40,223 bases of DNA, from positions 1 to 40,223 of the forward strand of contig WRAC01000023.1 of assembly GCA_009780415.1 (NCBI GenBank). The letters are read 5' to 3'. Within the stretch, counting starts at the first letter, position 1; each line of letters starts with the position of its first letter. Source of the DNA: Defluviitaleaceae bacterium (GTDB lineage Bacteria > Bacillota > Clostridia > Lachnospirales > WRAX01). Positions 4,769 to 38,116 of this stretch are shown piece after piece. The notes beneath the pieces were generated by a model. That model worked only from the letters and a program-made list of their open reading frames with translations, had not been told where the DNA came from and ran no database searches. The translations under genes were made by a program, and so were the position numbers.

Positions 4769-4837
4769 AGGTAATGTGGCTTCAAATCCAGCCATATGGC
4801 ACGGAATTTTATGCATTTTATTTTAAGGAGGCTTTTT

Positions 4838-6739
4838 ATGAAGAGGAAGTTGGCTTTGCTGCTTGCCGTTGTTATGGCAAGCACGATGTGGTTCTCGACC
4901 GCGGCCCATGCTTCAGGCCGGGTTCAGATGACCCCAGTGGGTACTCCCCGCGCGCAGACGCTGATTGTTGAGTTCCAGGAGCCCACCGACACGCCCGGGC
5001 AGTTTAACAGCTACATGCAGGGCACTTCGATGGGTACCGGTATCCATCAGCTTATGTCCGCCATGATGTGGGAAATGGACACCATTTCCGGTGAGCAGTT
5101 CGGTGAGGTAGCCGCCGGTATGCCCAGGTCCAACGAGGACTTTACCGAGCACTACATAGATATCCGCGAGGGTATCAAGTGGTCTGACGGCACGCCTCTT
5201 ACCGCTAAAGACGTCGCGTTCACGATGAACATGATCCGTGACACCCCGCACTTACACCTTTCGGCTTATTACCAGCTGATTTTCGAATCCATTGAGCAGG
5301 TAGACGAGTATACCGTGAAAGTCGTTACCACCGAATCCTTCCCGCGTTTGTCAATGCGTTTCGGCGTTACGATTTGGGGTAATGACCTTCGTATAGTGCC
5401 GGAGCATATCTACTCTCAGGTGGAAGACATAACCCTCTTCAAGGACGAGTTCCCCGTGGTAGCCGGGCCGTACACCGTTCACAGCTATGACCCGCTGGGC
5501 AACTGGGTGCTTTATCAGCTCCGCGAGGATTGGGAAGCCAGCACGCTGGGCGTCGTAACAGGCCAAAAGCCCGCCGCGCAGTACGTTTGGATGCGCTATA
5601 TCGGCGACGACAACACCCGTCAGATGGCGCTTATCAACAATGAAGTTGACATCCTTTGCGAAGTAACCCCGGAAATGCTGGAAGTCATGGTCAGGCGCAA
5701 CCCGAACATCGCCGCCTGGTATGACGAGTTCCCCTATGCTACCTCTGACGACCCCTGTTCAAAGGGTATCGCGTTCCAGATGGCTAAGGCTCCGTACGAC
5801 AACCCGGATTTCCGTTGGGGCGTCGCTCTTGCGATGAACTTTGACGAAGTGTCAATGGCAATCTTTGAAGGCGCGGGTCGCGCAAGCGTTATCCCGATCC
5901 TGACAGCCACCAGCGCTATGCAGGAATTATACATGAGGCCCACCCTTCCGTGGCTGGAAGCTTTTGAACTTGACTTGGGCGATGGTACAACCGTAAAGCC
6001 TTGGGATAACGGCTACGCCAACCGTATGGCGGAAACACTCCGCGCTCAGGGCAGAAACCTCCCCACCGACCAGGAAGAGCTCTACGACATGTTCGGGTTC
6101 GGCTGCTGGAAGTATGACCCCGAAGCCGCTACCAAGCTGTTCATCAAAGCCGGTCTTGAGTTAAGGGACGGCAACTGGTTCTTCAACAACGAGCCCTTTG
6201 TCATCAACCTGACCCAGCTTGCCGACACCGAAGTGCAGGCAGGCCGCGGTGTTGACGCTGCAGCCGACCAACTTACCAAGTTCGGTTTCAATGTGACCAA
6301 CAGCAAAGAGAGCAGCTCTACCTGGTGGAACAACAACGATACCGGTAACTGGGAAATGGCCGGCTACTGGCCCACCGGTTTCATCACGAAGGATATCTAC
6401 TCTCAGATCAACGGTTTCGACAACACCCTTATCGTACCGTTGGGTGAGCGCGGCTCCGGCCAGCAATCCCGCTGGGATAACGACAGAGCTACCGAAATCA
6501 TCAAGGAAATGGCAACACTCTCTCCTGAGGATCCCCTGTCCTACGAGCTGGGCCTTGAGTTCCTGAGGGTCGCTATCGAAGACATGGCGTTCCTCGGCTT
6601 CCACTCCGGCGTCAAGTTCGTGCCCACAAACAGCACCTACTGGACCAATTTCCCCAGCGCCGCCAATCCCTACAACGGCCCCTGGTGGTGGTGGAGCTGC
6701 TTCAAGTACATCGTAGCCGAAATCGTTCCGGTAGAATAG
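4838..6739 (+). CDS. ABC transporter substrate-binding protein, family 5
   Basis: The start is ATG 4838, seven bases after AAGGAG (4825-4830); an upstream in-frame ATG at 4796 has no ribosome binding site. The 633-residue product fits the SBP_bac_5 family (peptide, nickel and oligosaccharide binding proteins): REGIKWSDGTPLTAKDVAFTM, typical of the family, is followed by the long two-lobe fold. The N-terminus is a classical Sec signal (MKRKLALLLAVVM) ending in an AHA-S signal-peptidase-I site. There is no lipobox cysteine, which is odd for a Gram-positive binding protein. It is the first gene of an operon with two permeases and two ATPases. The partner ATPases resemble the oligosaccharide-type branch more than the classical peptide branch, so sugar oligomers are a possible ligand, but the substrate cannot be read from sequence. 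Confidence 0.9.
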   Translation: MKRKLALLLAVVMASTMWFSTAAHASGRVQMTPVGTPRAQTLIVEFQEPTDTPGQFNSYMQGTSMGTGIHQLMSAMMWEMDTISGEQFGEVAAGMPRSNEDFTEHYIDIREGIKWSDGTPLTAKDVAFTMNMIRDTPHLHLSAYYQLIFESIEQVDEYTVKVVTTESFPRLSMRFGVTIWGNDLRIVPEHIYSQVEDITLFKDEFPVVAGPYTVHSYDPLGNWVLYQLREDWEASTLGVVTGQKPAAQYVWMRYIGDDNTRQMALINNEVDILCEVTPEMLEVMVRRNPNIAAWYDEFPYATSDDPCSKGIAFQMAKAPYDNPDFRWGVALAMNFDEVSMAIFEGAGRASVIPILTATSAMQELYMRPTLPWLEAFELDLGDGTTVKPWDNGYANRMAETLRAQGRNLPTDQEELYDMFGFGCWKYDPEAATKLFIKAGLELRDGNWFFNNEPFVINLTQLADTEVQAGRGVDAAADQLTKFGFNVTNSKESSSTWWNNNDTGNWEMAGYWPTGFITKDIYSQINGFDNTLIVPLGERGSGQQSRWDNDRATEIIKEMATLSPEDPLSYELGLEFLRVAIEDMAFLGFHSGVKFVPTNSTYWTNFPSAANPYNGPWWWWSCFKYIVAEIVPVE

Positions 6740-6778
6740 ATTAATAATCAACATAAGTGTAAGTAAATTAGCACAACG

Positions 6779-6823
6779 GGGCGTGCGCTATGCTTAACGG
6801 CGGCGCACGCCCTTTAGTTTTTT
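6779..6823 (+). terminator. Intra-operon terminator between binding protein and permease
   Basis: A perfect 10-bp stem, GGGCGTGCGC (6779-6788) with GCGCACGCCC (6803-6812), closes a 14-nt loop and is followed by TTTAGTTTTTT. It lies between the binding-protein gene and the first permease gene. Partial read-through would give high binding-protein and lower permease levels. Confidence 0.85.
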
Positions 6824-6871
6824 ATTAACTATCAGCTTTTAAATATTAACTGTTCTTTAAGGGGTGTTGTC

Positions 6872-7870
6872 GTGAAATTCCGCACCTATTTTGTGTTACG
6901 TGTTTTTACGTGTATATTGACTATTTGGATTGGCGTTACGTTTATATTTTTTATTCCCAGGATGTTCCCGTCGGACCCTGTGGAGAACATGCTGGGGCAG
7001 ATAATATCGCGCGCGGGGTCGATGGATCCAAGAGAATTGGAGCTGATGCGCAGCAGCCTGCGCGTTCAGTTCGGCATGGAAGGCTCTTTGATAGAGCAAT
7101 ATTTTTCATATTTAAGGAGAGGGCTGTTACGGTTTGATTTCGGCCCTTCGCTGATGAATTTCCCGGAACCGGCCGGTAATATTATTGCCAGGAATTTGCC
7201 GTACACTCTGTTTTTAGCGCTGACGGCGACGGTATTCGCGTGGATTATAGGCAATTTAATCGGTCTGTTCGCTGGGTTCCGGAAGAACAAGATGTCGTCC
7301 CGGATAATGGAGAGTATAGCCATTTGCATTTATCCCATCCCGTATTTTATCATTGCGCTTGTTTTGCAAATTATATTCGCGTTTATATTGGGGTGGTTCC
7401 CTTTACAATCCACTATATTCCATCACGGTACGTTTTGGGATTTCTTTGCGTCGCTGCTGAAGGCATCGGTCTTGCCCGGTATTTCGTTAATGCTGATCGG
7501 TACGGGCTGGTGGATTATTTCAATGAAATCGCTGTCGTCCACCACCGCCGCGGAGGATTTCGTGCTGTTTGCCCGGTTCAGAGGGCTGCGCGAAAGTGAG
7601 ATCGGATGGAAATACGTGTTCCGCAACTCTATTCTGACACAGGTCACCGCTCTTGCGTTAAGTTTGGGCGGAGTGTTCAGCGGAGCCATTATGACCGAAA
7701 TTATTTTTGGATATCCCGGCGTAGGCACATTGATACAGAGAGCGATTTTGCAATCGGATTACAACATGATTTTAGGCACCATAACCATTTCAATCGTCGC
7801 CATTTCCGTGTCTACGCTAATTATAGATTTAATACTGCCGTTTGTTGATCCGCGCATACGGTACAGCTAA
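6872..7870 (+). CDS. ABC transporter permease, DppB/OppB type
   Basis: The start is GTG 6872 behind AAGGGG. The 332-residue product has an N-terminal membrane helix followed by an external region (about 40-95) and five further helices, the layout of the BPD_transp_1 permeases that pair in Opp/Dpp-class importers. The EAA-type loop that docks the ATPase is visible around residues 225-250 (FARFRGLRESEIGWKYVFRN), followed by FGYPGVGTLIQRAI, a typical OppB C-terminal motif. The gene follows the intra-operon hairpin and is 12 bp ahead of the second permease gene. It forms a heterodimeric channel with that protein. The substrate is unknown, but the opening IFFIPRMFPSDPV pattern is compatible with an oligosaccharide-type member. 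Confidence 0.9.
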   Translation: MKFRTYFVLRVFTCILTIWIGVTFIFFIPRMFPSDPVENMLGQIISRAGSMDPRELELMRSSLRVQFGMEGSLIEQYFSYLRRGLLRFDFGPSLMNFPEPAGNIIARNLPYTLFLALTATVFAWIIGNLIGLFAGFRKNKMSSRIMESIAICIYPIPYFIIALVLQIIFAFILGWFPLQSTIFHHGTFWDFFASLLKASVLPGISLMLIGTGWWIISMKSLSSTTAAEDFVLFARFRGLRESEIGWKYVFRNSILTQVTALALSLGGVFSGAIMTEIIFGYPGVGTLIQRAILQSDYNMILGTITISIVAISVSTLIIDLILPFVDPRIRYS

Positions 7871-7882
7871 AGGAGGGTAAAG

Positions 7883-8737
7883 ATGGCAGCCGGAATATCA
7901 ATAAAAAAGTTTTGGAAAAATGCTAATTTCCGCCTGAAAGCTGGCTTGTTCGGCACCGCTTTTTTCCTGTTCCTGGGGTATGTTGTGTATTATTTTCCCC
8001 ACGACAACCCCATTTTGTTCTATACCCATACCCCAAGACTGCTTCCAAACTCCGTAAACTGGCTGGGTACGACTACTTTGGGGCAGGACATCTTTTGGTT
8101 ATTAATAGAATCAATACATAATTCATTGACGATAGGACTTATTGTCGCCACAATCGGCACTGTTGTGGGTGTTTTTGTGGGCTTGCTGGCGGGCTTTACC
8201 GGCGGCACCGTTGACCGCGTGCTGAGTGTGGTTACCGATACCTTTATCGTGATACCTTCGCTGCCCATCTTGATTTTAATGGCTTCTTTGATGAGGGGTT
8301 CCGCGACCACCATTATGATGGCGCTGGTGCTGTCCATGTTCGCCTGGGCGTGGCCCAGCCGCCAGATACGCTCCATGGCGCTGTCGATGAAAGAGCGGGA
8401 TTTCATACACACGGCTTGGTTTTCCGGCGAGGGTACGGTACAGGTTATCGCGACGGAGATTCTGCCATACGCGCTGACATGGTCGCTGTCCAACTTTATG
8501 AACGCGACGTTGGTAGCTATCGCCGCCGAGTCCGGTCTGGCGGTATTGGGGTTGTCCCCGGCAAACCTTGTTTCGCTGGGCAACATGATCCAGTGGGCCA
8601 GGGACCGCAACGCCATCTTCGCCGAGCAGTGGTTCTGGATCGGCTCGCCCATTGTGGCTACGGTGCTGCTCTTTATCTTCCTGTTCCTGCTGATAACAGG
8701 GTACAACGACTATTTATCCATGAAGAGGGGGAGGTAG
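7883..8737 (+). CDS. ABC transporter permease, DppC/OppC type
   Basis: ATG 7883 sits behind AAGGAGGG. The 284-residue protein has an N-terminal helix (about 20-37), an external segment containing LGTTTLGQDIFW (the conserved LGTDxxGRDxxS-like region) and a five-helix BPD_transp_1 core. The ATPase-docking loop is near residues 165-190 (RSMALSMKERDFIHTAWFSG). It partners the preceding permease. The ATPase gene begins 3 bp after its stop codon, so translation is probably coupled. Residues typical of the first half of the family are retained and no truncation is seen. Confidence 0.9.
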   Translation: MAAGISIKKFWKNANFRLKAGLFGTAFFLFLGYVVYYFPHDNPILFYTHTPRLLPNSVNWLGTTTLGQDIFWLLIESIHNSLTIGLIVATIGTVVGVFVGLLAGFTGGTVDRVLSVVTDTFIVIPSLPILILMASLMRGSATTIMMALVLSMFAWAWPSRQIRSMALSMKERDFIHTAWFSGEGTVQVIATEILPYALTWSLSNFMNATLVAIAAESGLAVLGLSPANLVSLGNMIQWARDRNAIFAEQWFWIGSPIVATVLLFIFLFLLITGYNDYLSMKRGR

Positions 8738-8740
8738 CAT

Positions 8741-9721
8741 ATGTTTAAAGTAGAGAACCTGTCCACCTCTTATAAAACGATTAACGGGGACGTACGCGTC
8801 ATTAACGATGTGAGTTTTGAGATACGTGAAAATGAGGTTTTCGGCATCGCGGGGGAATCGGGATGCGGAAAGACCACATTATTGAAGGCTTTGTACGATA
8901 TTGTGGAGTTCCCCTTGCAAATCGATTCGGGCCGTGTAATATTAAGCGGCGAGAAGAACGGTAACGCCTTTTCCTATGAATCCGGCAATATCAGGAAAAC
9001 ATGGTGGGACAATATCACCTACGTGCCTCAGGCCGCACAGAGTGTACTGAACCCTATAACACGCCTTAAACAGCATTTTATTGACTCTGTTCCTAAAAAA
9101 GAGCGAAAAAACCAAAGCCCGGAGCAGGTACTCGGCAGGGTAAGGCAATATTTGGAAGAGCTGAATCTTTCGCCCGATCTGCTGGAAGCCTTCCCTTTCC
9201 AGCTTTCCGGCGGTATGCGCCAGCGTATTATCATAGCCCTGGCTACGTTTATGTCACCCGGCGCAGTGCTTGCGGATGAACCCACAACGGCGCTGGACGT
9301 GGTCGTACAGCGCGGGATATTGATGATGCTGACGCGCCTGCAGAAGCAACTGAAAAACACCTTGGTGCTGGTTAGCCATGACATGGGCGTCCATTATCAG
9401 ATAACCAACAGGATGGGTATTATGTATTCGGGAAGTTTCGTGGAAATGGGCGAAACAGAGAAGATATTCGCGGATCCGATTCATCCGTACACGAAGATGC
9501 TTGTGGGCGCGCTACCAAGAGTTGGCGATAAAAGCACAAGGGTAGGCATACCGGGGCGCCCGCCCGCGCTGACGAACCCGCCGCCCGGTTGCCGTTTCGC
9601 GCCGCGCTGCCCCGAAGCCACAGACCTTTGCCGTAAGGACGCTCCGTCCTTTGCGGAGGTAAAACCCGGCCGTTTTGCCGCTTGCCATTTCCTGGCTAAA
9701 GATACGACGGAGGTAGTGTGA
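8741..9721 (+). CDS. ABC transporter ATP-binding protein, DppD/OppD type
   Basis: The 326-residue ATPase has Walker A GESGCGKT (38-45), Q-loop VPQ (95-97), signature LSGGM (155-159), Walker B VLADE (176-180), D-loop TALD and H-loop His213. The C-terminal oligopeptide-transporter extension carries four cysteines in the order seen in the family (GCRFAPRCPEATDLC and then AACHF). The motif TALDVVVQR replaces the [10 protein letters not shown] of classical peptide-type OppD; I associate the former with oligosaccharide-type members of this class (inference from memory). Working with the next gene product, it powers import by the two permeases. A ribosome binding site, GGGGAGG, overlaps the end of the upstream gene. 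Confidence 0.92.
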   Translation: MFKVENLSTSYKTINGDVRVINDVSFEIRENEVFGIAGESGCGKTTLLKALYDIVEFPLQIDSGRVILSGEKNGNAFSYESGNIRKTWWDNITYVPQAAQSVLNPITRLKQHFIDSVPKKERKNQSPEQVLGRVRQYLEELNLSPDLLEAFPFQLSGGMRQRIIIALATFMSPGAVLADEPTTALDVVVQRGILMMLTRLQKQLKNTLVLVSHDMGVHYQITNRMGIMYSGSFVEMGETEKIFADPIHPYTKMLVGALPRVGDKSTRVGIPGRPPALTNPPPGCRFAPRCPEATDLCRKDAPSFAEVKPGRFAACHFLAKDTTEVV

Positions 9722-9722
9722 A

Positions 9723-10697
9723 GTGGATAAATTGCTGGATATAAAGAATGTAACGAAGGTATTCCGTATAGGCGGTATGCTGCGGGGCAGGAAGCTGGTG
9801 GCTGTTGACGGCGTTTCCCTCTCCATTGACGCGGGAACCCCGACCATATTGTCCGTGGTGGGCGAATCCGGCTGCGGCAAGACCACTTTGTGCAAGTTGA
9901 TTTTACGTATGCATGACCCGGACGGGGGCGAAATTATTTTAGCCGGTAATTCCTATGCCGATAAAAAAAATTACAACCCTCTCCGTTTCCGTTTGGATGT
10001 CCAGCCCATTTTTCAAAATCCCTACGAAACCTTTTCGGCGCGCAAGCCGGTTGATTCGTATCTGTTCAACACCGCGCTCCGTCTGAAAATCGCGAAGAAC
10101 CGCGCGGAAGCGGAGCATGTGGTTGACGAGGCGTTGAAAAGCGTCGGCATGTCGCTGTCCGTGGTGAGAAAAAAATACACCACCCAATTTTCCGGCGGCG
10201 AGCTTCAGCGTATATCAATAGCGCGGGCGCTTATAACGCGGCCCAAGCTCATCATTGCCGACGAGCCCGTGGCGGCTATAGACGCGTCCATGAAGATGAA
10301 TATCATCAATTTGTTCAAGGAGCTAAAGGACAAATACAACGTCTCCTTCGTCTACATAACCCACGACCTTTCCACGGCCTACTACGTATCCGACTATATC
10401 GCCACCCTGTATCGCGGCTGCCTTATTGAATACGGCCCGGCCCGGGAAATAATGGACAATCCCGCGCATCCGTACACCGAGCTGCTGATGAACGCGGTTC
10501 CCCGGGTAGGCGACAAATGGGACGAATCCTTGGTTCTGCCGGACACGGAGGAAAGCGAGTATTCCATCACCTATTGCAAATTCGCGCCGCGCTGCCCTTA
10601 CGCAACCGACGGCTGCCGCCAGGAGCGGCCTTCAATGAAGATGTTTGGCGAATCCAGAAAGGTATTGTGCAATCATCCGTTGGTATTGGCGGAATAA
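9723..10697 (+). CDS. ABC transporter ATP-binding protein, DppF/OppF type
   Basis: The GTG start at 9723 lies one base after the previous stop, behind GGAGG at 9709-9713. The 324-residue protein has Walker A GESGCGKT (47-54), a Q-loop in PIFQNPYETFSARKPV, signature FSGGE, Walker B LIIADEPVAAID and an H-loop THD. The C-terminal extension again has the cysteine pattern CKFAPRCPYATDGC. In these importers the D and F ATPases form a heterodimer. In the D-loop region it reads VAAIDAS, where classical OppF has SALDVS. Substrate specificity is not determined by this subunit. The next gene, glycerate kinase, starts 21 bp later, so it could be co-transcribed. Confidence 0.92.
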   Translation: MDKLLDIKNVTKVFRIGGMLRGRKLVAVDGVSLSIDAGTPTILSVVGESGCGKTTLCKLILRMHDPDGGEIILAGNSYADKKNYNPLRFRLDVQPIFQNPYETFSARKPVDSYLFNTALRLKIAKNRAEAEHVVDEALKSVGMSLSVVRKKYTTQFSGGELQRISIARALITRPKLIIADEPVAAIDASMKMNIINLFKELKDKYNVSFVYITHDLSTAYYVSDYIATLYRGCLIEYGPAREIMDNPAHPYTELLMNAVPRVGDKWDESLVLPDTEESEYSITYCKFAPRCPYATDGCRQERPSMKMFGESRKVLCNHPLVLAE

Positions 10698-15519: not shown

Positions 15520-15558
15520 TAATTTTATTCATATTTATTGTTAAGAAGGAGGAATTTC

Positions 15559-17511
15559 ATGAAACGGTTTTTTGCTGTTATGTTGGCTCTTGCGCTGACA
15601 GTCGGGATGTTTGCGGGCTGCGACGGCGACGGCACCGCGGCCAATGAGTGGAGCGGAGAATACGGCCCCCACGGCATCCGGTACGCCGCGGACCAAACGC
15701 TTAGGAGGCTCTACGCCGCCGAGGTAACAAGGCTTTCGCCCTTCAACAACAGTGATTCCCAGAACGACAGCGAGTTCAACGCCCTTGGCACCAAAGGGCT
15801 TGTGAGCCGCGACAATTACAACATTGTGATGCCCGCGCTGGCCCACAGCTGGGACATCAGCGAATGCGGCACGGTTTACACATTTTACCTCCGCGAAGGC
15901 TTGGTGTATGTTGACCATACGATGACGCCCGTCCCGGGTTCCGAGCTTACGGCTGACTGTTTCGTGGCGGTTATGGAATGGAACCTTAACCCCGAGCATC
16001 TTTCGCCCAACGCCCGCAACTGGAACGACTATGTTGTAGGCGCGCTGGAATACTACACTTGGGAATCGGGCGATGAAGCCGCGATAGAGAGATTGGGGCT
16101 GACGGAAGAGGTAACCCTTGACGAAATAGGCTTTAAGGCCATCGACAAACACACCCTTGAAATCACGTTGAGATTCCCCGTTCCGTTCTTCCTTGAATAT
16201 ACCCCCTATTATCCCGCGTGGCGCCCCTTCCTTGAGGAGCAAGGCGTGCTTTACGGCACAGACCTTGATAGGATTATCTTCATCGGGCCTTATGTTCTCA
16301 CGGTCTTTGAACCCCAATACAGAAGGGTTTACACAAAAAACCCCTATTATTACAACGCCGACGGGATTTTTGTCGAGAGGATTATTGACACATATAACAG
16401 CGAAGCCGGCTTGCTGGCGCCTGTGATCTTCATGAACAATGAAATTGACTACGCCGTAATAAACGCCGAAATAGTGGATACATGGCTGGATAACCCGCTT
16501 TTCGCGCCTTATGTGTGTTCGGGCCGTCCCGACCCCAGCTTCATTTGGTACTATATGTTTAACTTCTGGCCGCAATTTGACGAAGAGTACGAGCCGGCCA
16601 ATTGGGACTTGGCCGTAAACAACGAAGCCTTCCGCCAGTCCATCCTATGGGGGCTTGACACCTACAGGGCGTTGTTAACAACGGACGCATTCAACGCACA
16701 CGCATACCTTGGCAGCACGCTTACACCTGTGGGCTACTCTGTGCTGGGTAACGTGGACTATGTCGATTTGCCGCCCCTCGAGGATTTCGCCCATCATCCC
16801 ACATGGCTGTATGATAGCGACAAAGCCCTTGCTTACAGGGACCAGGCTATTGCGGAGCTGACCGCTCAGGGCGCGACCTTCCCCATAAAGATGCTTATGC
16901 CCTACAACCCCTCCGGCTCTCTTGGAGTAGCGTGGGCTTTGGAAGTTCAGGTTGTGGCACAGCAGCTCCAAGGCTTGCTGGGCGCGGATTACATTGAGCC
17001 TATCATCGTGGTCGGCCCCGCCACAAACTTCCTTGCCGATGTACGCCGCATGGGCAATTATGCCTTTATGAAGGGCAACAACGGCGAAGTGGCGCATGGC
17101 GACCCGCAATCCTGGACCTGGGCATTCGAGCCGTCAACTGAATTAAGGAACGTAAACTGGAACTTTATAGACCTCGCCACAGGGGCCGAGACCCAGAGGG
17201 TCTACAGTGAGTGGGTAGAGCTTTTGGAGGCGGCTATGGCTATCAGGATAAAGAGCGAAGAGCGCTATCTCGCTTTTGCCGAAGCCGAAGCCCATCTGAT
17301 ACGGCACGCGCTGGTTATCCCGTATTACCAGACCGGCGGCGGCTACTACGCTTACCGCTACAACCCCTTTGACGCCTACGGCCAAGGCGGGCAGCCGAGC
17401 TGGAGGTTTGAGGGCTTGAGAGTGCTGGCCGAACCTTTGACGTCCGAGCAATGGGAACTCCTTTACGCCGACTGGTTGGCCGAAAGAGAGGAAGCCTTAG
17501 CTAACAGGTAA
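15559..17511 (+). CDS. oppA: Oligopeptide ABC transporter substrate-binding lipoprotein
   Basis: ATG 15559 follows AAGGAGG. The 650-residue protein starts with a lipoprotein signal (MKRFFAVMLALALTVGMFAGC, cleaved before Cys21), so it should be tethered to the outer face of the membrane. The mature part fits SBP_bac_5: YTFYLREGLVY, near residue 111, is the family signature region, followed by the two-lobed fold. Downstream genes encode an AmiC/AmiD-like permease pair and AmiE/AmiF-like ATPases, so oligopeptides are the likely substrate. The gene has its own promoter, and a hairpin separates it from the permeases. A sequence-based call on peptide length or signalling role is not possible. Confidence 0.9.
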   Translation: MKRFFAVMLALALTVGMFAGCDGDGTAANEWSGEYGPHGIRYAADQTLRRLYAAEVTRLSPFNNSDSQNDSEFNALGTKGLVSRDNYNIVMPALAHSWDISECGTVYTFYLREGLVYVDHTMTPVPGSELTADCFVAVMEWNLNPEHLSPNARNWNDYVVGALEYYTWESGDEAAIERLGLTEEVTLDEIGFKAIDKHTLEITLRFPVPFFLEYTPYYPAWRPFLEEQGVLYGTDLDRIIFIGPYVLTVFEPQYRRVYTKNPYYYNADGIFVERIIDTYNSEAGLLAPVIFMNNEIDYAVINAEIVDTWLDNPLFAPYVCSGRPDPSFIWYYMFNFWPQFDEEYEPANWDLAVNNEAFRQSILWGLDTYRALLTTDAFNAHAYLGSTLTPVGYSVLGNVDYVDLPPLEDFAHHPTWLYDSDKALAYRDQAIAELTAQGATFPIKMLMPYNPSGSLGVAWALEVQVVAQQLQGLLGADYIEPIIVVGPATNFLADVRRMGNYAFMKGNNGEVAHGDPQSWTWAFEPSTELRNVNWNFIDLATGAETQRVYSEWVELLEAAMAIRIKSEERYLAFAEAEAHLIRHALVIPYYQTGGGYYAYRYNPFDAYGQGGQPSWRFEGLRVLAEPLTSEQWELLYADWLAEREEALANR

Positions 17512-17538
17512 TAACCGGAACCAATTTATAAATTAATT

Positions 17539-17574
17539 AGATCGGGTCTGTTCCATACGAGCAGGCCCGGTTTA
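17539..17574 (+). terminator. Hairpin between oppA and oppB (attenuator-like)
   Basis: CGGGTCTG (17543-17550) pairs with CAGGCCCG (17562-17569), with one G-T wobble and an 11-nt loop; the stem extends through A/T and wobble pairs to about 17539 and 17573. Only TTT follows, so it is a weaker terminator than the one in the first operon. It occupies the same place, between binding protein and permease. Confidence 0.6.
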
Positions 17575-17614
17575 ATAAAATGCAGCTTCACCTAAAACGG
17601 GGGAATGACGGCAG

Positions 17615-18562
17615 ATGTTCTTATACATAATCAAAAGGATTCTGAGATCATTTTTAAGTTTGTTTTTAATTATATGCATTGTTTTTGTGCTTCTGAGGCA
17701 AATGCCCATCGAAGGTTACTTCCCGTCAAACTATGACAGGCTGACCGAGCTTGAGCTTAATAATATTTTAAGAAACCTGGGGCTCTTAGACCCCGTTCTG
17801 GTTCAATTGTTCAACTTTCTTAAACAACTGTTTACCGAGTTTGATTTCGGGAGGTCCATCAGGTATTTACAAGGCCGCCCCGTAATTGAAATTATTGCGT
17901 CAAAAGCGCCCATATCGTTCCGGTTCGGCATGATAGCGATTTTTTTCAGCATGCCGCTGGGCATGTCCCTTGGCGTAATGATGTCCCGTAAAAAGAGCGG
18001 CGCGTGGGATAAAATCGGCACCGGTTATATCGTGCTGCTTCAGGCTATGCCGGCGGCAATTTATTTCGTTCTGATACAGCTTTACGGCTCGTCATTGCTG
18101 GGGCTGCCTTTGCTTTACAACCCGGAAGTGCCGCGCAGTTTAATTTTGCCAATATTTACCATGTGCTTGCCGAATATCGCGTTTTACGCGTTATGGATGC
18201 GCAGATACATGGTTGATGAGATAAATAAGGATTACATAAAGCTTGCCAGGGCAAAGGGCGTGCCGAACACGACGATCTTTTTCCAGCATGTGTTCCGGAA
18301 CGCCGTTGTCCCCATGACCAACACCATCCCTACAGCTATACTTATGACTATTGTCGGCGGTATCATAATAGAGTCCCTTTACTCCATACCCGGTACGGGC
18401 GGCCTGCTCGTGGACGTTATCAGGCGGCAGGACAATCCTATGGTGCAGGGGCTTGTTATCGTATATTCATCGCTGGGAATCCTTGGCCTCCTATTGGGCG
18501 ATATCTTAATGGCTTTTGTTGACCCGCGGATAAAGCTGCACAAAAAGGGGGATCAGAGGTAA
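17615..18562 (+). CDS. oppB: Oligopeptide ABC transporter permease OppB (AmiC-like)
   Basis: A 315-residue BPD_transp_1 permease with an N-terminal helix (about 8-28), an external segment (about 30-100) and five core helices. The ATPase-docking loop is seen at KDYIKLARAKGVPNTTIFFQHVFRN, longer than quoted motifs elsewhere and typical of OppB. SIPGTGGLLVDVIRRQDNP is the usual C-terminal block. The start ATG 17615 has a poor binding site, with GGGGGAA 10 or more bases away, which fits low expression relative to the binding protein. The stop codon overlaps the next ATG by one base (TAATG), so translation of oppC is coupled. Confidence 0.92.
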   Translation: MFLYIIKRILRSFLSLFLIICIVFVLLRQMPIEGYFPSNYDRLTELELNNILRNLGLLDPVLVQLFNFLKQLFTEFDFGRSIRYLQGRPVIEIIASKAPISFRFGMIAIFFSMPLGMSLGVMMSRKKSGAWDKIGTGYIVLLQAMPAAIYFVLIQLYGSSLLGLPLLYNPEVPRSLILPIFTMCLPNIAFYALWMRRYMVDEINKDYIKLARAKGVPNTTIFFQHVFRNAVVPMTNTIPTAILMTIVGGIIIESLYSIPGTGGLLVDVIRRQDNPMVQGLVIVYSSLGILGLLLGDILMAFVDPRIKLHKKGDQR

Positions 18563-19683
18563 TGAGCAAATACTCTTTTACGCTGAACAGCGCCAACAAG
18601 CTGGAAGAAGCTGTCCTTGAAGATTTCCGCCGGAGAGTAAAGGGCGCCCCCGATGATTTGAGCAAAGAGGAGATGCAAAGCCTCGACCCCGAATATTTCG
18701 CTTTCATACAGAGCAGCATGAAAGAAGCCGAAAAAGCGGGCTATTCCAATTATTCGTACTGGGGCAGCACCTTACGTATGTTCTTTAAAAACAAGGTTGG
18801 GGTAACGACCTTTGTGATTTTAATAATTCTTATCGGATTCTCGCTTATCCAGCCGTTTTTGCCGAATCAGAAATCCCCGACGCAAATATATAACCAAATG
18901 GTATTGCGTCCCAACGGAAGATGGTACGAGCAGCAAATACGCAACCACGGCCCTTTCCAAGGCTTATCGTATTTCGGCACAACCAACGACGGTACGGAGA
19001 TATGGGAGAATTTCGTGTTCGGAACCAATAATATCGGGCAGGATTTGTGGGCGCGCATATGGTCCGGTACACGCACTTCCTTGCGGATTGGCGTTACCGT
19101 GGGTTTTGTAAGCATACTCATCGGTATTTCCATCGGCATGATGTGGGGATATATCCGTCCGCTTGACTGGTTCTTTACCGAGCTGTACAATGTCATAAAT
19201 AACATACCAAGCACTATAATACTGATACTCGCGTCCTTTTTGATGCGGCCCAGCGTAGGAACCATCATATTTGCCATGTGCATATATACCTGGCTTAACA
19301 TGGGGCGCCTTGTCCGCAACCTGACCATGATGCTGCGTGACCGCGAGTTTAACCTGGCCTCCCGCTGCTTGGGCACCAGCGTGTTTAAGATTATCTTCCG
19401 CAATCTTCTTCCGCAGATGGTTTCGATTATCACCCTCAATTTCGCCCTTGCTATCCCGGGCGCTATCAATTCCGAAGTTTTCCTGTCCTACCTCGGCCTG
19501 GGTGTGGACGTGAACACCCCGTCGCTGGGCAACCTTCTGAACGCCGGGCGCGCGTTAATGATGTCGCCGGCGCTCAGGTATCAGCTGCTCATCCCCGCCG
19601 CCGTTCTCTGCGTCATTACCATCAGCTTCTACCTGATGGGCAACGCGTTCTCCGATTCGGCCGATCCGCGGAATCACGTCTAA
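18562..19683 (+). CDS. oppC: Oligopeptide ABC transporter permease OppC (AmiD-like)
   Basis: A 373-residue permease. Its long cytosolic N-terminus (about 1-72) includes a YSYWGSTLRMFFKNK segment just before the first helix, which I recognise from AmiD/OppC of Gram-positive oligopeptide transporters. After the first helix comes an extended external region (about 95-165) with GTNNIGQDLWARIWSGTRTS, then the five-helix core. The ATPase-docking loop reads MLRDREFNLASRCLGTS. It pairs with OppB. Translation starts at the ATG that overlaps the oppB stop. The last residues, FSDSADPRNHV, are the family C-terminus, so the gene is full-length. Confidence 0.92.
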   Translation: MSKYSFTLNSANKLEEAVLEDFRRRVKGAPDDLSKEEMQSLDPEYFAFIQSSMKEAEKAGYSNYSYWGSTLRMFFKNKVGVTTFVILIILIGFSLIQPFLPNQKSPTQIYNQMVLRPNGRWYEQQIRNHGPFQGLSYFGTTNDGTEIWENFVFGTNNIGQDLWARIWSGTRTSLRIGVTVGFVSILIGISIGMMWGYIRPLDWFFTELYNVINNIPSTIILILASFLMRPSVGTIIFAMCIYTWLNMGRLVRNLTMMLRDREFNLASRCLGTSVFKIIFRNLLPQMVSIITLNFALAIPGAINSEVFLSYLGLGVDVNTPSLGNLLNAGRALMMSPALRYQLLIPAAVLCVITISFYLMGNAFSDSADPRNHV

Positions 19684-19695
19684 AGGGAGGTTTAT

Positions 19696-20727
19696 ATGGA
19701 TCATACCAATCAAGAAGCTTTGGTTTCTATAAAAGATTTAAATGTGAAGTTCAAATTACGCGGTAAGCGGCTGCACGCCATCCGTAATATTTCCCTTGAT
19801 ATTCTCCGGGGCGAAAGCTTGGCTATAGTCGGTGAAAGCGGTTCCGGTAAATCCGTGCTTATGAAGAATCTGATCGGGCTGCTGGATAAAAACGGGGAGA
19901 TTGAGTCAGGGGCTATTTATTACGGCGGGAAGGATTTGGGGCAGTTTAAAGAGAAGGACTGGCAGGGGTTCCGGGGCAGGGAAGTCGCCATGGTTATGCA
20001 GGACCCGATGACCAGCCTGAACCCGCTTAAGAGAATCGGCTGGCAGATTTGCGAGGCTCTGCGGTATAACCAGGATATGCGCGGCGAACAAGCGAAACGC
20101 AAAGCGGTAGAGCTGCTGTCGGACGTTGGGATACAGGAGCCGGAAAGAAGGTATAAGCAGTATCCGCACGAATTTTCCGGCGGTATGAGGCAGAGGGTCG
20201 TTATCGCCATGGCGATGGCTTGTAACCCAAGGCTGTTGATTTGCGACGAGCCTACGACCGCGCTGGACGTTACGATCCAAGCGCAGATACTGAACCTTTT
20301 GCGGGACCTTAGGAATAAATATGACCTTACGATGGTTTATATAACCCATGACCTGGGCGTTGTGGCGAATGTCGCGGACCGCATCGCCGTTATGTACGCG
20401 GGCGATATCGTCGAAATCGGCACATGCAACGAGGTGTTCTTTTCGCCGCGGCATCCGTACACATGGGCGCTGTTGTCCTCCCTGCCGCAGCTTGGCGTAA
20501 AAAAAGAGGATTTGTTTTCTATAAAAGGTACGCCGCCCAATCTTTTCCAAGGTATACGCGGCGACGGCTTTGCGGCAAGAAACCCCTTACCGCTGGCGAT
20601 AGATTTTCTGCACCGGCCGCCTTATTTCGAGATAAGCCCGACCCACAAGGCACGGACATGGCTGCTTGACCAACGGGCTCCCAAGCTCGAACCGCCGGAG
20701 CAGATAGAGAGTATTAAAGAGATATAG
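19696..20727 (+). CDS. oppD: Oligopeptide ABC transporter ATPase OppD (AmiE-like)
   Basis: The start ATG 19696 lies behind AAAGGGAGG. The 343-residue ATPase has Walker A GESGSGKS (46-53), Q-loop [13 protein letters not shown], signature FSGGM, Walker [17 protein letters not shown] and an H-loop THD. The C-terminal tail reads [25 protein letters not shown] and [13 protein letters not shown]. This is the AmiE/OppD tail of Gram-positive oligopeptide systems and lacks the four cysteines present in the first operon's ATPases. This difference is the main reason for calling the second operon oligopeptide-specific. It forms a heterodimer with the next gene product. Confidence 0.92.
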
Positions 20728-20738
20728 GAGGAGCGGCT

Positions 20739-21683
20739 ATGAATAACGAAGCGCTTTTAAGTGTTCACGATATGGAGGTTACATTCGGAACGGGGCGGAA
20801 AAAGTTCGTCGCGGTTAAAGGCGTATCCTTCGATATTTATAAGGGTGAGACCTTTGGGCTGGTTGGGGAGTCCGGTTCTGGAAAAACGACGATAGGGCGG
20901 GCGATAATACGCGTAAACCCCACAAGCCGGGGTGAGGTGTTTTTCAAGGGCGAGAAGATAAACGGCAAAATAACCAAGGAGCTGGACAAAAGGATTATTT
21001 CCGAAATCCAAATGGTTTTCCAGGACCCGATGGCGTCACTTAACGAGCGCGCAAAGGTTGATTATATAGTTTCCGAGGGATTGCAAAATGTGGAGAAAAA
21101 GCTCCCCTCGCGGGAAAGGCGCGAAAGGGTGGCTAAAACGCTGGGGGATGTCGGGCTTTTGCCGGAATTCGCAAGCCGCTTCCCGCACGAGTTTTCCGGG
21201 GGCCAGAGGCAGCGCATCGGCGTCGCCAGGGCGTTGATTATGCAGCCGTCGTTTATTATCGCGGACGAGCCGATTTCCGCGCTGGACGTGTCTATCCGGG
21301 CGCAGGTGCTGAACCTTTTGTCAAAGCTGCAGAAAGAGCGGAATTTGACTATTTTGTTTATATCGCATGATTTGTCCGTAATGAGGTTTATAACGGACAG
21401 GATAGCTGTTTTACACAAGGGCGTGCTGGTCGAGCTGGCGGATACGGAGACGTTGTATACAAACCCGCTGCACCCATATACCAAGGCGCTGCTATCAGCC
21501 GTGCCGCTGCCAAACCCGATAAAGGAGAAGCAAAAGCAACTGACGGTTTATGATCCCTCCTGCCATGATTATTCAACGGACAAACCGATATGGGAAGAGA
21601 TTGAGCCGGGGCATTTTGTACACGGAAACAATAAAGAGCTTGAGGAATACAGAGCTGCAACCAGCAGGATAAAAAATGCATAA
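20739..21683 (+). CDS. oppF: Oligopeptide ABC transporter ATPase OppF (AmiF-like)
   Basis: The start ATG 20739 follows AGGAGGAG. The 314-residue ATPase has Walker A GESGSGKT (43-50), Q-loop [15 protein letters not shown], signature FSGGQ, Walker [13 protein letters not shown] and an H-loop SHD. After the nucleotide domain come [17 protein letters not shown] and a short tail ([21 protein letters not shown]) typical of AmiF. It is the last gene of the operon and converges with a minus-strand phosphatase gene only 14 bp away, with no terminator visible between them. Confidence 0.92.
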
Positions 21684-36819: not shown

Positions 36820-38010
36820 CTACATCTTCTCAAGTTTATATGGAACGGTATCCATTAAAACCCCGCAGAACGAATATTTGTTGTTTCCAAAATCGTAAGC
36901 GCGGGAATCCGGCGTTTTTTGGTAACGCAATTCCTGACCGTATAGCTTGCCGTTATGCTCTCCCGCGATAAAGCTGCGTATAAAGAGCTTGCCGTCCCCT
37001 TGGGTCTGGCCGTCGTCCTTGCTGTTTACGACGAATTGAAAGATGAACCCGCCAAATGACGGGCAGCTCGGCACCATGCCGGAAACCATGCCGTGCCCCG
37101 GCCTGTAACCGCCGCATTCCCCTCCGGCAAGATAAAAACGGTATTCCCTGTTATGCGTATCGAAGGAGCTGTTTTCGTTTATCATACCCAACTTAACGCC
37201 GGTGTAGGCGTAGGCGCCGAGTTCGCCCATGCGCATGGTATCGCGGCAGTCAACGATATACACGGCTCCGCTGCCCGCCACGGTTATCTTACCCGTCGCG
37301 CCATCGTAAATAAGGGCCGTATCCTCGGAAACGCCAAAGCCCATGTTGCTTTTTCTGTCACGCGTCACCGTTACCGCCTCCACAAGGCGGAAAAAGCGCG
37401 GGCGCGCGTCCCAGTGCTGGTCAATAACCCCGGCGGGGAAGTAGCCCAATCCTTTGGAAATGCGCAGCATAGAGCCGGTTTCTTCGTTTAAATCATCATA
37501 ACCCCATGAAATCGGGGCGTTCAGCGCCGTTCCCGTTTCACCCCCGCAGATCATTACCTCGCTCATTATCGCGGCCCCGGCACCGCATCCGCCGATAACG
37601 CCGCCATTTTCATAAATCCTTCGCGTAATCTCCAAGGCTTTGGTATCCGAACCGTCCGCGCGGCAGAATTCCTTCGTAATATAAAATTGGTCGCCGCCTG
37701 TGAACCATACGCCCGTAGCGCCGTCCAGCATCGCGGTTATTCCGGCGGTATCGCAGACCGGCTCCGCCCCTTCCATGCGCGGGCCGTCCGTACCCGGAAT
37801 AGGCAGGCGTATAATGTTTTCCGGCTTTACTCCCAGTTTTTTCCAGATTTCAAATATATATTTCGAGTTCTCCTCATGCTCCCCCCCGCCAGCGGTTGGT
37901 ACGATGGCTAATTTCGCTCCCGTTCCGCCTGCCGCGTCGATAAACCTCGTATGTATGCTGCGTTCGGAAGCCTCGATTGCGCCTCCGGCTATTATCAGTG
38001 TGCCAGGCAT
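36820..38010 (-). CDS. Cyanophycinase-like protein lacking the canonical serine
   Basis: The first 270 residues match the S51 cyanophycinase family: GTLIIAGGAIEASE, AIVPTAGGGEHE, WFTGGDQFYI, GGVIGGCGAGAAIMSE, GVIDQHWDARPRFFRL (Asp197, Gln198, His199) and GFGVSEDTALI. The nucleophile elbow, normally GTSAGA, reads GCGAGA: Gly143 takes the serine position and Cys142 precedes it. Codons TGC and GGT are clear in the sequence. About 120 extra residues follow compared with the typical 270-residue enzyme. Cyanophycinase releases Asp-Arg dipeptides from cyanophycin; without its Ser the protein may be inactive, use Cys142, or have another role. No cyanophycin synthetase is in this window. The gene has its own promoter and a hairpin leader. 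ATG 38010 is behind AGAGGAG. Confidence 0.85.
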   Translation of the reverse strand: MPGTLIIAGGAIEASERSIHTRFIDAAGGTGAKLAIVPTAGGGEHEENSKYIFEIWKKLGVKPENIIRLPIPGTDGPRMEGAEPVCDTAGITAMLDGATGVWFTGGDQFYITKEFCRADGSDTKALEITRRIYENGGVIGGCGAGAAIMSEVMICGGETGTALNAPISWGYDDLNEETGSMLRISKGLGYFPAGVIDQHWDARPRFFRLVEAVTVTRDRKSNMGFGVSEDTALIYDGATGKITVAGSGAVYIVDCRDTMRMGELGAYAYTGVKLGMINENSSFDTHNREYRFYLAGGECGGYRPGHGMVSGMVPSCPSFGGFIFQFVVNSKDDGQTQGDGKLFIRSFIAGEHNGKLYGQELRYQKTPDSRAYDFGNNKYSFCGVLMDTVPYKLEKM

Positions 38011-38026: not shown

Positions 38027-38061
38027 TACCATGTTGCAATCTAAGTGATTGCAACATGGTA
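38027..38061. promoter_or_regulatory. Perfect 15-bp inverted repeat in the cyanophycinase-like gene leader
   Basis: TACCATGTTGCAATC (38027-38041) and its exact complement (38047-38061) flank a 5-nt loop. On the minus strand it lies between the predicted promoter and the AGAGGAG binding site, with no T-tract, so it acts as a leader stem-loop or an operator and not as a terminator. Confidence 0.75.
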
Positions 38062-38087: not shown

Positions 38088-38116
38088 ATTATAACAAAAC
38101 ATAGTTAACAAGTAAA
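38088..38116 (-). promoter_or_regulatory. Promoter of the cyanophycinase-like gene
   Basis: On the minus strand TTTACT (38116-38111), a 17-bp spacer and a perfect TATAAT (38093-38088). A second TATAAT at 38076-38071 lacks a good -35 partner. Confidence 0.55.

Follow-up and report, generated by a model that had tools for sequence, protein, structure and literature searches.

The window, the whole stretch of DNA that was analysed (40,223 nucleotides), carries an intact gene for a cyanophycinase-family protein in which Gly143 takes the place of the nucleophile serine. The protein is best explained as a former intracellular CphI-type cyanophycinase that would no longer be able to cleave, its pathway having been dismantled and its serine lost very recently, a reading to which we give a probability of about 0.5. 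Cyanophycin is a nitrogen-storage polymer that is digested by cyanophycinase, and the host of the gene is an uncultured spore-forming bacterium. The gene and its principal parts are as follows.

36820–38010, minus strand: cyanophycinase-family protein (S51) of 396 aa, with Gly143 for the nucleophile Ser (open reading frame, profiles, homologues and model)
37582–37587, minus strand: codons TGC GGT, giving Cys142-Gly143 in place of the Thr/Ser/Val-Ser of the nucleophile elbow (sequence and alignment)
37387–37422, minus strand: D197-Q198-H199...R203, R205, R208, comprising the catalytic His and substrate pocket, all conserved (alignment; roles from a section of PMC3235067)
36820–37200, minus strand: C-terminal extension, about residues 270–396, common to relatives (alignment and model)

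The reading frame runs from its ATG to the stop codon over 396 residues with no interruption, and the gene is therefore intact, as the original prediction had it. The protein scores above the curated cut-offs of both the TIGR02069 cyanophycinase profile (149.8 bits, cut-off 126.6) and the PF03575 Peptidase_S51 profile (35.2 bits, cut-off 23.9); it starts directly at the first strand with no signal peptide and looks cytoplasmic. An AlphaFold2 model built on a 50-sequence alignment (mean pLDDT 88.2, pTM 0.90) has the cyanophycinase fold and superposes on the CphB structure 3en0 with a Z score of 30.0 and an rmsd of 2.1 over 257 residues, in agreement with the earlier view that the fold blocks are kept. 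The roughly 120 residues added at the C-terminus, to which that prediction also drew attention, are present but not peculiar to this protein: relatives of about 390–400 aa that look cytoplasmic have C-termini that align with them, as do secreted long forms, some of them tandem and some ending in LysM-like tails. The nearest of the short relatives, from Tissierellales and other groups, lack these residues. No relatives of the protein were found in phages and viral contigs, and a phage link is thus not indicated. A search of the same genome for other S51 proteins found only one (G000:C17, elbow GVSAGA), which was ruled out as a replacement cyanophycinase, being peptidase E-like and encoded by a short, 217-aa frame.

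The elbow of the protein reads GGCGAGAAIMS, with Cys142 for Thr and Gly143 for the catalytic Ser; codons 142 and 143 are TGC GGT at 37587–37582 of the minus strand, encoding IGGCGAGAAIMS, and so confirm the predicted residue pair. Ser132 is the catalytic residue of CphB, and Gln101, Asp172, Gln173, Arg178, Arg180, and Arg183 are critical, with a His and a Glu completing the triad, according to a section of PMC3235067 that cites Law et al. 2009. In the alignment the six critical positions are occupied in the window protein by Q108, D197, Q198, R203, R205, and R208, and the catalytic His and Glu, with roles as given in the same section, by H199 and E229; the DQH motif is accordingly retained at residues 197–199, where it had been predicted. 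The Ser of the G-x-S-A-G motif expected of an active cyanophycinase is the one element replaced, by Gly143. The title of PDB entry 7uqw describes CphB in its S132DAP form with a cyanophycin dimer covalently bound, and the residue at the nucleophile position is therefore the acyl-forming one. The window protein would thus have no acyl-forming residue and is most likely catalytically dead.

The homologues compared came from genomes of the family (16), the order (392), and the class (391), together with the best 80 relatives from a GTDB-wide scan of one-genome-per-species contigs (about 85,000 species), the patterns for which exclude the elbow and so carry no bias against the variant. At the nucleophile column, 135 of the 136 homologous domains have Ser; the exception, with Ile, is domain one of L112, a tandem protein of Cytobacillus. 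The column of residue 142 holds Thr in 112, Ser in 23, Val in one, and Cys in none. Judged from this alignment, the loss of Ser at the nucleophile column is far beyond chance drift. No second Cys-Gly elbow was present among the family, order, and class homologues and the best 80 GTDB-wide relatives, and the nearest relative (L050, the same gene as L004 and L045; JAISWZ010000647.1), 47–48% identical over the full length, has the elbow GVSAGA. On present data the Cys-Gly elbow is a lone substitution, in a compared set with a single genome of the genus. It had been proposed that the CGAGA pattern defines a subfamily, a proposal that was to fall if close relatives had the normal serine; every close relative found does have it, and the subfamily is on present data refuted. 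With one genome of the genus compared, a very young CGAGA subfamily within it is conceivable. A literature search of partial coverage found no paper joining cyanophycinase and pseudoenzyme. PDB entry 7uqv ("pseudo-CphB") was considered as a known dead homologue and rejected, because a Ser aligns at its nucleophile position (gtsagasvm); "pseudo" in its title presumably stands for Pseudobacteroides, the source of the enzyme.

The original prediction also allowed that Cys142 had taken over catalysis, which would make the protein a thiol protease-like variant of S51. In favour of this, the thiol adjoins the position that lost its serine, the protein retains His199 and Glu229, and G-G-C-G-A would loosely fit the Sm-X-Nuc-X-Sm elbow. 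However, no indel shifts the register, and in the model the strand spans residues 138–142, residue 143 lies at the turn and the helix starts at 144, so that the elbow register is predicted to be normal, with Gly143 occupying the nucleophile site and Cys142 ending the strand. Moreover, the position preceding the nucleophile varies (Thr, Ser, or Val) in Ser-bearing relatives, and 6nqc has a Cys there beside an intact Ser. Because the modelled elbow keeps its standard register, catalysis by Cys142 is unlikely, and Cys142 as the replacement nucleophile is given little credence.

The genomic surroundings of the gene, which the original prediction did not consider, point to a cause for the loss. The relatives' loci that were examined, 20 in all, came from the wider clade and covered both long and short forms, none with a signal peptide. 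In 20 of 20, oppDF lies directly upstream of the cyanophycinase gene or within about 1.6 kb of it, usually with the rest of opp; iadA falls inside the stretch examined in six, and an M14-type aspartoacylase-like gene is present in many. These loci match the "cyanophycin utilization locus" that has been published for genomes without cphA1 (in a passage of PMC10206079 citing Ben Hania et al.). The order oppABCDF, cyanophycinase, M14-type gene, iadA recurs in L048, L049, L052, L054, and others, making the M14-type gene a candidate for an unrecognised step in cyanophycin utilisation. The window itself has two oligopeptide ABC transporter operons (4796–10697 and 15538–21683), about 5 kb apart, one of which enters the argument.

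15538–21683, plus strand: oppABCDF operon, orthologous to the cyanophycinase-linked opp of relatives (percent identity)

The products of this second set are 59–63% (D and F), 45–48% (B), and 37–42% (C) identical to those of the locus-linked opp, as against 22–38% for the first set, and by these values the second set is likely the ortholog of the locus-linked opp and the first is not. The orthologous operon is about 15 kb from the window cyanophycinase gene.

The genome as a whole (2.53 Mb in 85 contigs, with a marker completeness of 100%) gave no match to cyanophycin synthetase (cphA) above the cut-off, and neither iaaA nor an intact iadA was found; nor was the M14-type gene of the relatives' clusters, in a weak search that had no positive control. 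What was found is a C-terminal fragment of iadA, about 46 residues long, on another contig (G000:C6:35262-35399; L130 1450-1656). Its sole NCBIfam match is to positions 343–389 of the IadA model TIGR01975 (37 bits). Its neighbours are an intact M42 peptidase gene immediately ahead of it and, on the far side, a gene resembling that for topoisomerase IV subunit A. The M42 protein is 43% identical over its full length (365 aa) to the M42 protein encoded beside the cyanophycinase gene of the sister. The fragment is 33–43% identical to intact IadAs, the tails of which are 25–79% identical among themselves; it is thus not clearly more diverged than an intact tail and fits a recent truncation. The cyanophycinase, transporter, and isoaspartyl dipeptidase genes that cluster in a cyanophycin utilisation locus do not do so in this genome. 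With opp 15 kb away, cphA and iaaA not found, and iadA reduced to a fragment, these data suggest that the pathway has been taken apart, apparently recently, and that cyanophycinase activity was lost with it.

The truncation of iadA also bears on whether the substitution is real. An error of assembly or consensus, or a mixture of strains, at 37582–37587 would leave a normal elbow in the true sequence, and the draft state of the assembly and the finding that the two changed residues are adjacent and unique would be in keeping with this. However, two to four separate base substitutions would be needed to turn ACC AGT, TCC AGC, or GTC AGC into TGC GGT without a change of frame, and a simple slip in sequencing is therefore unlikely; the frame and flanks are normal, and the iadA fragment is an independent sign of pathway loss in the same genome. 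An artefact at this site is consequently held to be improbable.

The region ahead of the gene has a ribosome binding site (AGAGGAG) and two further elements.

38088–38116, minus strand: sigma-70-like promoter, TTTACT-17 nt-TATAAT, with TG before the -10 (pattern match)
38027–38061, no strand assigned: perfect inverted repeat (15-nt arms, 5-nt loop), downstream of the promoter-like site and upstream of the ribosome binding site

A promoter-like site and a ribosome binding site, both called good in the original prediction, are thus present, but the former counts for less because such matches are about as frequent as shuffling predicts (3 found, against 1.7 expected). The arms of the inverted repeat are TACCATGTTGCAATC and GATTGCAACATGGTA, and it is possibly an operator or a 5'-leader hairpin. 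One pattern search for copies across the genome returned a copy with three mismatches at G000:C14:21708-21736 (L043), at a similar distance ahead of a 40-aa Lys-rich open reading frame, and a shared operator or leader hairpin is possible.

Against a dying gene stand the intact frame, the lack of clear decay inside the gene, and the lack of any rate acceleration. In Tajima-type counts, changes unique to the window protein and to its Ser-bearing sister number 31 and 37 (with the outgroup L051), 35 and 40 (L053), and 38 and 41 (L055), the upper 95% limits of the window/sister ratios being about 1.35–1.44, and with the outgroups L052, L061, and L054 the sister is the faster of the two. The end branches measure 0.71 for the window protein and 0.90 for the sister. 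By these counts the window gene evolves no faster than the sister. The window protein alters five of the 46 columns conserved at 90% or more, the third highest number among 50 sequences and a little above the norm, but F190Y and F200W, two of the five, are conservative. Prolonged neutral drift therefore seems unlikely, and since the rate has not accelerated, either the loss of the nucleophile is very recent and went along with the truncation of iadA, or constraint persists because the inactive protein serves as a binder. The frame and the rate are compatible with the claim that this is a maintained variant and not a decaying gene, but no relative shares the substitution.

The second of these options, also raised by the original prediction as a binding or scaffold pseudoenzyme, is plausible in that the serine is gone while the pocket, His, and Glu are kept and the frame is open without acceleration. 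The protein would then be a retained binder or sensor of cyanophycin or β-aspartyl peptides, and might buffer imported peptides, present them, or control their uptake. The complete pocket (Q108, D197, Q198, R203, R205, and R208), the gene's own promoter-like site, the perfect 15-nt palindrome ahead of the ribosome binding site, and the intact orthologous opp operon would all suit such a role, and we regard it as a tentative alternative. Its more specific form, a maintained pseudo-cyanophycinase whose β-aspartyl pocket binds cyanophycin-derived peptides as a cytoplasmic sensor or carrier working with the orthologous Opp importer, is rated as rather doubtful. A very recent loss predicts an identical picture, however, and the occurrence of the substitution in no relative means that there is no comparative sign of maintenance after the change.

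Recent loss is preferred over a retained binder for that last reason, and because a broken downstream pathway removes the need for cleavage. With no clear decay inside it, a dying gene can only have lost its activity very recently. The ancestor would have had its cyanophycinase gene beside those of an OppABCDF peptide importer and IadA, importing cyanophycin-derived peptides and degrading them to β-Asp-Arg and on to amino acids. Once the locus was broken up and iadA truncated, the cyanophycinase product would have had no known use; Ser143 could then have changed to Gly, with Cys142 as an incidental change in its neighbour. The Ser-less protein should still fold and may bind β-aspartyl chain ends. 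If real, this is a natural nucleophile-loss cyanophycinase with an otherwise complete active site and the rest of its degradation locus visibly broken, and it offers a testable case of the collapse of a nutrient-scavenging pathway or of the emergence of a pseudoenzyme that binds.

Of known systems, intracellular CphI/CphB (S51; TIGR02069; PDB codes 3en0, 7uqw, and 7uqv) is among the nearest. The window protein shares with it the fold, with VIA-align Z scores of 29–30 over 251–257 residues, the catalytic His and Glu, the substrate pocket residues, and the lack of a signal peptide. Unlike CphB it has Gly for the nucleophile Ser and Cys at the preceding position, and its C-terminal extension of about 120 residues is absent from the solved CphB structures. 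The identity to the Clostridia opp-linked cyanophycinase of JAISWZ010000647.1 (L050/L045) includes the C-terminal extension, and both genomes have the opp ortholog; that gene, however, encodes GVSAGA and adjoins opp, with intact iadA and M42 genes in the same cluster, whereas the window gene has opp about 15 kb away, an iadA fragment, and M42 on another contig.

The extracellular CphE and the secreted long forms of Bacillota (L016, L017, and the Cytobacillus tandem L044) have the S51 core in common with the window protein, and the Bacillota forms a homologous C-terminal region also. L016 and L017 differ in a signal-peptide-like N-terminus and a LysM-like tail and the tandem forms in a second domain, and all keep the Ser. 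Among other S51 variants, the tandem two-domain cyanophycinase of Cytobacillus oceanisediminis (L112 6001-7161) has GTIAGA, with Ile at the nucleophile, in its first domain and Ser in its second, the first domain being, by its sequence, another natural nucleophile loss. Clostridia cyanophycin loci L062 (8692-11658), L063, L064, and L065 have an extra open reading frame of about 900–1100 aa, the S51 domain of which has DTH in place of DQH. Extracellular CphE is reported to have Thr at the middle DQH position in a section of PMC3235067, and by analogy these large proteins may be giant extracellular cyanophycinases. What is new in the window protein is probably a nucleophile-less natural variant of a known enzyme family rather than new chemistry.
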